Positions 1-627 of a DNA stretch of 33,041 nucleotides are shown here, piece after piece (positions within the stretch are counted from its first letter, which is position 1; each line of letters starts with the position of its first letter). Location of the stretch: NCBI GenBank assembly GCA_015066095.1, contig SVPC01000017.1, positions 1 to 33,041 of the forward strand, read 5' to 3'. The notes below the pieces were generated by a model that was not told the DNA's origin, ran no database searches, and saw only the letters and a list, made by a program, of their open reading frames with translations. This stretch comes from Oscillospiraceae bacterium (GTDB taxonomy: Bacteria; Bacillota; Clostridia; Oscillospirales; Acutalibacteraceae). The translations under genes and the position numbers were made by a program.

Positions 1-349
1 CAATTTTCTTTTCTATTGTAATACAAGAAGCTGTTAAAATTCTTTGAATTCTACCACAAAGATTTCTATGTTTTTTAAAAGCAATATCATCAATTGCATT
101 ATTAGAATATAAGAGTTTTAACCAACTTTCAGTTTCAACACATTCCTTGCGAGCAATTTTAAATTTTGACAGCATATCCGGCAAACTTTGAGGATATTGT
201 GCTTCAGTTATGTTGGCAAACACACTTGACGCAGATTTGCGAATTTGAAAAATAATATTTGAGTTACCTTTGTGTTCTAAATGTTTACAAAGAGATTCAA
301 TATCAACCGCCAACTGTTCGGCATTTTTAAGCAACGGATTATCTTTCAT
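1..349 (-). CDS. Four-helix-bundle protein (IVP/Avd-like family), 3' end off window
   Basis: The reading frame starts at ATG 349 behind a GAGGTGAG ribosome site (353-360) and runs open to the window edge, giving 116 residues with no stop. The protein begins MKDNPLLKNAEQLAVDIESL. It carries the pattern typical of the small four-helix-bundle family first found in 23S rRNA intervening sequences (TIGR02436 type): an IRKSASSVFANITEAQ segment near residues 36-51, then helices with KIARKECVE and a WLKLL motif. Family members are small basic helical proteins, usually about 115-125 residues, so little should be missing. The biochemical role is unclear; the relative Avd works with retroelement reverse transcriptases, but none is visible here. 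It has its own promoter (367-395), which touches the hairpin array. The base composition is AT-rich compared with the nearby housekeeping genes. Confidence 0.75.
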   Translation of the reverse strand, partial: MKDNPLLKNAEQLAVDIESLCKHLEHKGNSNIIFQIRKSASSVFANITEAQYPQSLPDMLSKFKIARKECVETESWLKLLYSNNAIDDIAFKKHRNLCGRIQRILTASCITIEKKI

Positions 350-366
350 ACTCTCACCTCTTTTAT

Positions 367-395
367 AGTATAGCAGAAAACCGTTTCTAAATCAA
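367..395 (-). promoter_or_regulatory. Sigma-A promoter of the four-helix-bundle gene
   Basis: On the minus strand TTGATT (395-390) and TATACT (372-367) are separated by exactly 17 bases, 18 bases upstream of the start codon at 349. The first three bases of the -35 box (395-393) are also the first bases of the outermost hairpin of the array, so the array ends directly at this promoter. Confidence 0.6.
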
Positions 396-589
396 GGCGT
401 AGCCTTGTATGGAATCCGACGAAGTCGGTATGTAATCATTTCGAAGAAATGCATGTAATCCACCGCAGGTGGTATGTAATCAATCCGAAGGAAGAAACAT
501 ACAAGTCTTACGACTTGATGACATACCGTTTGCAAAGCAAACGGATTACATACGCCTATCGGCGATTACATACCAATCTTTCGGATTGG
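393..589. repeat. Array of variable-stem hairpins separated by TATGTAAT / ATTACATA spacers
   Basis: Successive hairpins are: 393-407 (CAAGGC, loop GTA), 416-428 (CCGAC, loop GAA), 437-451 (CATTTC, loop GAA), 460-472 (CCACC, loop GCA), a degenerate unit from 481, 502-517 (CAAGTC), 526-544 (CCGTTTGC, loop AAA), 553-564 (CGCC) and 573-589 (CCAATC). Spacers in the left half read TATGGAAT, TATGTAAT, CATGTAAT and TATGTAAT (408-415, 429-436, 452-459, 473-480). Those in the right half read ATGACATAC, ATTACATAC and ATTACATAC (518-526, 545-553, 565-573), the inverse. The two halves are therefore an inverted pair meeting near 481-500. Read on the minus strand, the right-half loops are GTAA, TTT, GATA and CGAAA, so most share the G-N-(N)-A pattern. 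Stem sequences are all different. I do not recognise a named family. Confidence 0.85.
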
Positions 590-590
590 A

Positions 591-621
591 TAAAAATAAA
601 GGACTTCCGAAGAAGTCCTTT
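591..621 (-). terminator. Terminator of the tRNA cluster
   Basis: A 10-bp stem (598-607 with 612-621) closes on a TTCG loop when read on the minus strand, giving the very stable C(UUCG)G tetraloop, followed by ATTTTTA. It lies 7 bases after the tRNA-Cys 3' end. The plus-strand copy is also followed by a T-rich run, so it could work in both directions. Confidence 0.85.
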
Positions 622-627
622 ATTTTT

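Follow-up and report, generated by a model that had tools for sequence, protein, structure and literature searches.

The locus examined here raises the question of what a dense array of short hairpins with unlike stems is, and what it may do, at the place where a tRNA operon ends and the next gene begins. The array lies near the left end of the window, by which we mean the whole stretch of 33,041 nucleotides that was analysed from an Oscillospiraceae genome, and a sequence-only reading of it had known no family to which it could be assigned. Judged from the sequence comparisons given below, it belongs to a widespread DNA module that is conserved in structure and lies, in gut Clostridia, between the end of a tRNA or other stable-RNA gene and the promoter of an exchangeable cassette with a single gene. 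The features of this part of the window are as follows:

1 to 349, minus strand: cassette gene, cut by the contig start, for a four-helix-bundle or 23S rRNA-intervening-sequence protein (IVP), from profile matches
351 to 360, minus strand: ribosome-binding-site-like GAGGTGAGAG, read in the sequence
367 to 395, minus strand: outward promoter with -10 TATACT (367-372), 17 nt and -35 TTGATT (390-395), read in the sequence
393 to 407, plus strand: left hairpin 1, CAAGGC-GTA-GCCTTG
416 to 428, plus strand: left hairpin 2, CCGAC-GAA-GTCGG
437 to 451, plus strand: left hairpin 3, CATTTC-GAA-GAAATG
460 to 472, plus strand: left hairpin 4, CCACC-GCA-GGTGG
473 to 501, plus strand: last left spacer TATGTAAT and the hairpin-less centre, with the inverted pair 481-492/577-588
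502 to 517, minus strand: right hairpin R4, CAAGTC-GTAA-GACTTG on the minus strand
526 to 544, minus strand: right hairpin R3, CCGTTTGC-AAA-GCAAACGG
553 to 564, minus strand: right hairpin R2, CGCC-GATA-GGCG on the minus strand
573 to 589, minus strand: right hairpin R1, whose family consensus served as the search pattern for further copies
592 to 627, minus strand: strong intrinsic terminator of the tRNA operon, an inverted pair with a 16-bp perfect stem and a 4-nt loop
628 to 702, minus strand: tRNA-Cys, the last of a Val-Asp-Phe-Gly-Cys cluster, found by ARAGORN and Rfam

The earlier description of at least eight short hairpins in some 200 bases, with stems of 4-8 bp that are each unlike the others, holds for this locus: eight were located within 393-589, seven with stems of 5-8 bp and one (553-564) with a stem of 4 bp. 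The loops are also as it gave them, GTA, GAA, GAA and GCA on the plus strand in the left half and GTAA, TTT, GATA and CGAAA on the minus strand in the right half. The nearly constant spacer that was said to flip in the right half is 8 nt long in the array and inverts half way; the left spacers are, in order, TATGGAAT, TATGTAAT, CATGTAAT and TATGTAAT, the right spacers ATGACATA, ATTACATA and ATTACATA, and because the letters of the two halves differ in this manner (TATGTAAT type versus ATTACATA type) the flip is real. Two elements had been missed, namely a centre at about 481-501 that has no hairpin of its own and in which AATCCGAAGG is complementary to the R1 hairpin, and the pairing of one left spacer with one right spacer. 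By eye, the hairpin-less centre covaries with R1 (AATCCGAAGG with CCTTCGGATT, AAGCCGAAG with CTTCGGCTT), here (481-492 and 573-589) and in other copies, and R1 therefore has two possible partners.

Seven perfect hairpins with a stem of at least 5 bp are packed into the 199 nt of the array (393-591). Over 10,000 dinucleotide-preserving shuffles the number of such hairpins averaged 0.57, peaked at 5 and never reached 7. When the 33 kb were scanned in 1,314 segments of 199 nt at a step of 25, seven hairpins were reached solely from start 351, in a segment that overlaps the array. Single-strand DNA folds of 385-630, a stretch that takes in the neighbouring terminator, gave z-scores of -11.1 and -12.7, and in these folds a single strand of the array is predicted to form a tree. 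The array had been held to be neither a CRISPR nor a terminator cluster, and we agree on both points: in the array it is hairpins that vary, the constant element of 8 nt inverts half way, and a T run was read after the hairpin at 592-627 only.

All five tRNAs of the cluster are on the minus strand. Since the terminator of their operon stands to the right of the array and a promoter with its gene to the left, the array fills the gap between the terminator and the next promoter, and the -35 element (390-395) even overlaps the first hairpin. The protein encoded at 2-349 on the minus strand matches PF05635 (E 1.4e-20) and TIGR02436 (E 3.5e-21), a family otherwise known from insertions in 23S rRNA genes. 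The IVP gene is a frequent cassette gene beside stable-RNA genes in these genomes.

The objection that the locus might be unique, which the earlier description had raised against itself, fails because copies occur in the same genome, in the genus and in other families of the order. The genome carries three arrays in all, with the two further copies at C14:97851 and C27:24369. The pattern TATGTAATC-N10..18-ATGTAATC is present in 17 of 70 genus genomes and its reversed control in none, and with the whole array as query 54 of 61 genus genomes yielded a match at E 1 or better, many of those listed being weak. An exact-pattern search for the right end gave 102 matches, located in 97 stretches of genome contigs; among the 80 titles listed for it, all name Clostridia, Oscillospiraceae, Eubacteriales or Bacillota, and 53 name a ruminant gut sample. 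Across 295 sampled genomes of the order, a near-identical pattern was found in 7, which are the genome of the window and six from three other families, and it was found in none of the 25 other sampled members of its own family. This patchy occurrence across the families of the order suggests that the array family has spread horizontally. A phage or plasmid origin of the array found no support: IMG/VR gave no match for the exact right-end pattern, and phage and plasmid records gave none.

A complete minus-strand tRNA is abutted by 54 of the 102 copies, and the ARAGORN table shows 55 copies whose flank contains a minus-strand tRNA, in one case at a greater distance, covering 15 amino-acid kinds. 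A Rfam scan of eight loci found 5S rRNA beside the array in two (L099, L106), tmRNA in two (L107, L192) and tRNA in one (L077), and no known RNA beside the array in the remaining three (L071, L072, L073). To the right of the array a hairpin of at least 7 pairs occurs in 97 of 100 assessable copies, 96 of them with a T run, as counted with no control set. On the promoter side the motif TATTATAGCATAAAAG, with at most 3 substitutions allowed and related to the promoter of the window, stands at the left end of 31 of the 97 copies with enough flank. With one mismatch allowed, TATAGCATAAAAGCGGC was matched 68 times, 28 of 70 genus genomes having it, and the reversed control 3 times; at the same setting it gave none in the genome of the window, which, like the share of 31 in 97, counts against the cassette reading. 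In the direction of the tRNA, the units shown by comparison consist of a stable-RNA gene, a terminator, a hairpin array, a promoter and a small gene.

We also selected sites by this promoter motif alone, which gave 33 sites from 29 loci after 3 short ones had been dropped, 4 sites lying in loci of the earlier set. A first count found an inverted repeat of at least 8 nt in 30 of them and a minus-strand tRNA within 420 nt in 13; an inverted repeat of at least 10 nt with arms at least 20 nt apart was present at 29 of the 33 sites versus 18 of 660 dinucleotide shuffles. A terminator was detected at 16 of the 33, a count that is due to a detector restricted to perfect stems. The spacers read by eye behind the same kind of promoter include TATATCATC, GTGAAATC, TGAAATA, GTGATATTC, ATGATG, ATTATTCATTATTCAT, TTACTTATTACC and TTCACTATTCACTATTAC, and several array families with different spacers share one architecture. 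The two halves of the arrays are matched as well: outside local hairpins, a left-right inverted match of at least 7 nt was found in 59 of 64 distinct arrays and in 110 of 320 shuffles, the local hairpins being masked in the arrays and the shuffles being made from unmasked letters, and not every one of the matched words is a spacer. XerD/dif half-sites were considered, TATGTAAT resembling a dif half-site, and were dropped, other array families having unrelated spacers.

The genes behind the arrays are small and diverse, and in some loci they stand in series. L127 has five promoter motifs of one orientation over about 3.1 kb, and behind each of them stands an array; these arrays fall by eye into three families, and the units measure 0.7-0.8 kb by site spacing, with one gene in each; four one-orientation motifs occur in L163 (the same stretch as L208) and three in L108 (the same as L211). 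A simple open reading frame rule applied behind 123 anchors, duplicates being dropped, gave 109 distinct proteins, some of them surely spurious, and failed at 14. By eye these include lipoproteins, membrane proteins and enzymes, 12 are IVP-like, and none of the 10 cassette-region proteins scanned was a recombinase. IVP homologues accompany arrays that adjoin tRNAs for Pro, Thr, Asn, Lys, Cys, Arg and Val. A common cassette end downstream of the IVP stop codon was seen in none of the 20 loci read, the sequence there being different, which again argues against cassettes.

One conserved gene, which 64 of 70 genomes have, adjoins tRNA-Thr in the cassette arrangement in 3 of 30 loci examined. At this tRNA-Thr locus the genome of the window has a TATGTAAT array with its genes, genome G003 a TTATTACC array with a small open reading frame, and genome G043 a tandem of two cassettes, whose arrays are of the TTCACTATT kind and, a short one, of the TGATATG kind; in G055 the tRNA-Thr is in the other orientation and carries a ATTATTCATT array. 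At tRNA-Cys an array was seen by eye in 6 of the 13 loci whose tRNA end could be located, and these arrays belong to five families; the remaining loci have other inserts or a contig end. These comparisons show that relatives carry different cassettes at one and the same tRNA 3' end, where one or two are present and a tandem is possible. Gene B of L127 has the same array family in L253 and another array family in L254; array and gene are therefore separable, which is evidence against the cassette reading.

Between the stop codon of one cassette and the next terminator there is a short conserved site, of which we distinguish three types, some of the pattern matches being chance hits inside genes. 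In two of the types GAAC lies as far from the terminator as it does in the T-loop of a tRNA. At this distance, plus or minus 1, GAAC occurs in 49 of 54 flanks with a tRNA and in 16 of 46 without a called tRNA, the background being 0.9% per position; five of these 16 are tmRNAs or partial or uncalled tRNAs, and 11 are therefore mimics. No such T-like site was seen behind the last cassette of L127, which, like the count in flanks without a called tRNA, does not favour cassettes. Some T-like sites resemble IS3-family ends, which are another possible origin for some of them. IS3-like ends lie next to array terminators in the left flank of L071 and in the right flanks of L155, L159 and L179, and the latter three are also counted among the T-loop mimics.

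Some breakpoints between related copies favour the cassette reading. L128 and L323 diverge where the promoter motif starts and where the tail of the site ends, and L127 and L166 at TTT|GGGACCGACAC; of the 27 rows that include a promoter, others have their breaks in different places, in some cases between promoter and array. In L211 and L259 the common stretch runs through the promoter and the array differs, which is contrary to the cassette reading. No obvious terminal inverted repeat or target duplication was seen by eye in the breakpoint contexts. A crossover inside the T-loop had been considered, several tRNA fragments ending near it, and was dropped for the array cassettes because the IVP gene adjoins complete tRNAs of several kinds; a junction after CCA fits better. 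Fragments of tRNA 3' ends that are cut near the T-loop lie between the terminator and foreign DNA in the right flanks of L119, L135, L137, L186 and L196, which looks like the integration of other elements into the neighbouring tRNA.

The interpretation that structure rather than sequence is kept was borne out by alignment of the hairpins. The left alignment took 48 of 49 distinct segments of 15 nt, the excluded one having no hairpin, out of 115 left segments, and the right alignment took all 28 segments of 12 nt out of 102 right segments. In the left hairpins 96.9% of cells pair, and in the right hairpins 87.5%. The covariation score was 0.837 on the left, versus 0.188 in shuffles and at most 0.329 in slid controls, and 0.470 on the right, versus 0.116 and 0.058, in rows that are not phylogenetically independent. 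The second half of the same interpretation, that the stems arise by a copying process such as template switching, is compatible with the data and not proven by them, and the parent module had gone unnoticed. We compared stems at matching positions in 281 pairs of arrays that are at least 80% identical, which gave 239 distinct changed hairpin pairs, and found that complementarity is kept in part: full compensation was seen in 77 (a single base pair in 42, two in 29 and three in 6), as template switching would have it, whereas 124 are uncompensated and 38 mixed. Some of the uncompensated changes are edge pairs beyond the true stem. Template switching has been reported to make and repair hairpins and can produce such paired changes in one event (PMC8794818). 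It is a fair explanation for part of the compensated stem changes, not for all.

On these data the array could be a passive by-product, a miniature palindrome-rich repeat whose stems come from template switching and which spreads by homologous recombination with no function. The 35 stems compensated at two or three pairs together are what such a process would leave, given the reported hairpin-making of PMC8794818, and mismatch types are not consistently filtered for wobble. The 124 uncompensated pairs mean that template-switch correction is not universal, however, and the recurring architecture, the C-G-closed loops and the matching halves across several families look selected; we regard a functionless by-product as unlikely. 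An insulator is a second candidate, in which extrudable palindromes between a strong stable-RNA operon and a promoter absorb supercoils and stop read-through, the array moving merely as an intergenic part. The position between terminator and promoter agrees with this, as do the loops, which are C-G-closed (91 of 102 distinct right hairpins and 91 of 115 left) and in many cases GNA, and which favour DNA hairpins; stable DNA minihairpins with GNA loops are known, according to PMC6479982, which cites Yoshizawa 1997. An insulator leaves the tandem cassettes, the T-like sites and the matching inverted halves of several families unexplained, and we consider it about as unlikely as the by-product.

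Whether the array acts as DNA or RNA was approached through its mismatches. If an RNA were under selection, G·U should clearly be in excess on its strand. Our wobble counts, made in four ways, disagree, and we put weight on the non-redundant ones. Among internal mismatches of 476 distinct hairpins from 185 segments of all families, which take in some flanking sequence, there were 20 G·T and 31 A·C on the plus strand (p 0.16), and 13 and 9, respectively, on the GNA strand (p 0.52). In the TATGTAAT family, counted per distinct mutated hairpin, the inner pairs gave G·T 14 versus A·C 12 (p 0.85) and the outer pairs 13 versus 6 (p 0.17). Counted per array pair in the same family, single uncompensated changes on the plus strand gave G·T 40 versus A·C 15, a redundant count that goes against the DNA reading, and the first 121 arrays gave 15 versus 3 on the GNA strand. 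The count per array pair would fit a plus-strand RNA and makes the RNA reading slightly less improbable; it includes identical mutated hairpins many times over, and with each taken a single time the excess is gone at inner pairs. The lack of a consistent wobble excess speaks weakly against RNA. From the loops alone DNA and RNA cannot be told apart, since both GNRA (70) and GNYA (26) are present among the 96 GNNA tetraloops.

A structured RNA, either a plus-strand sRNA that ends at the terminator or a minus-strand leader or read-through RNA, could draw on the strong covariation of the stems, the redundant G·T count, the share of GNRA loops and a predicted fold that is strong on either strand (raw minimum free energies of -68.8 and -76.6 kcal/mol, with no shuffle baseline), but it is very improbable, as G·T is not above A·C over all families or clearly so per mutated hairpin, the promoter that was read points away from the array, the minus-strand array lies behind the terminator-like hairpin in 97 of 100 copies, and no Rfam family apart from tRNAs reached the gathering score. 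The plus-strand sRNA in particular was rejected, no conserved plus-strand promoter being noticed by eye and no clear non-redundant G·T excess being present. In the window the five tRNAs are the sole Rfam matches at the gathering score, and three others lie far below it (E 0.008 to 0.22). A DNA-level role of the array is favoured, not strongly, because the non-redundant wobble counts are flat, no plus-strand promoter was noticed and the minus strand lies behind a terminator.

The arrangement matches none of the families tested. The integron cassette with its folded attC site is the nearest functional analogue, the array being attC-like in role and not part of an integron. Integrons share with the present units tandem cassettes of diverse small proteins and an imperfectly palindromic structured site in which structure is kept over sequence, and one integron-like trait was found directly, namely tandem single-gene cassettes in one orientation (L127, L163, L108). 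The present units differ in that they bring their own promoter and terminator and in that their outer anchor is often the 3' end of a tRNA, 5S rRNA or tmRNA. No genus genome out of 70 has a match above the curated cut-off to the integron integrase model TIGR02249; below the cut-off 69 of the 70 match, as do all 14 control genomes. The genome of the window (a MAG, 95.5% complete) has only two tyrosine recombinases, XerC/XerD-like and below the equivalog cut-offs. Membership among integrons fails because no genome reaches the integrase cut-off and these two recombinases are Xer-like. They lie on contigs other than those of the three arrays, which is unlike a tRNA-targeting phage or island and tells against the cassette reading. 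No GTTRRRY or RYYYAAC boxes were seen by eye in 29 plus 12 distinct T-like matches, some of which are chance hits in genes. At G007:C33:10742-16162 three tyrosine recombinase matches lie close together, perhaps in a recombinase-in-trio element.

Other known systems share single traits. tRNA-associated islands such as tycheposons also carry cargo at tRNA genes; the present units bear hairpin arrays, measure 0.7-0.8 kb with one gene each and gave no recombinase in the 10 proteins scanned. BOX, BIME/REP and MITE-type repeats are dispersed, modular intergenic palindromes of varying unit number; in the present case the stems differ within an array, the halves are mirrored and the place is between terminator and promoter. 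The hairpin promoters of the N4 virion RNA polymerase are C-GNA-G DNA minihairpins acting as DNA, whereas the array comprises many mirrored hairpins beside an ordinary promoter and has no phage match. The template-switch-made hairpins of PMC8794818 share paired, multi-base compensated stem changes; there a mutation process in RNA genes is described, and here an array with similar loops and spacers. We found no published description of the arrangement under integrons, cassettes, intergenic repeats or Clostridia and gut bacteria, in a search that scarcely covered subscription journals.

Our best explanation, held tentatively, is that the array is a DNA-level, structured noncoding boundary site of an exchangeable gene cassette. 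The array would act as DNA, extruded or single-stranded, folded into a tree whose C-GNA-G minihairpins branch from a spacer stem, and would serve downstream of stable-RNA genes as a recognition or boundary site for exchange, as attC does for integron cassettes. Exchange would be carried out by an enzyme acting in trans or by recombination with incoming single-stranded DNA; the cassettes may instead recombine by ordinary homology, a point against this reading. The array would form the main part of a DNA-structured boundary; what we infer is the enzyme, the place of crossing over and that the array is needed. The stems are probably kept perfect in part by template-switch correction as the DNA is replicated. 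A fuller proposal is more doubtful, namely a cassette-exchange system unrelated to integrons, with docking at the 3' ends of tRNA, 5S rRNA and tmRNA genes and at tRNA-like mimics, with C-GNA-G arrays recognised by an unnamed or housekeeping (Xer-type) enzyme in trans, and with cassettes that have their own promoter and terminator.

If the reading of the array as a boundary site is right, gut Clostridia would trade single genes through sites that owe their identity to DNA shape and have universal RNA genes as their anchor, in a cassette system with no dedicated integrase in sight. It would offer a ready explanation for the variable small genes found behind tRNAs in these genomes, and the arrays would provide natural, selected DNA hairpins on which cruciform extrusion and template-switch evolution could be tested in vivo.
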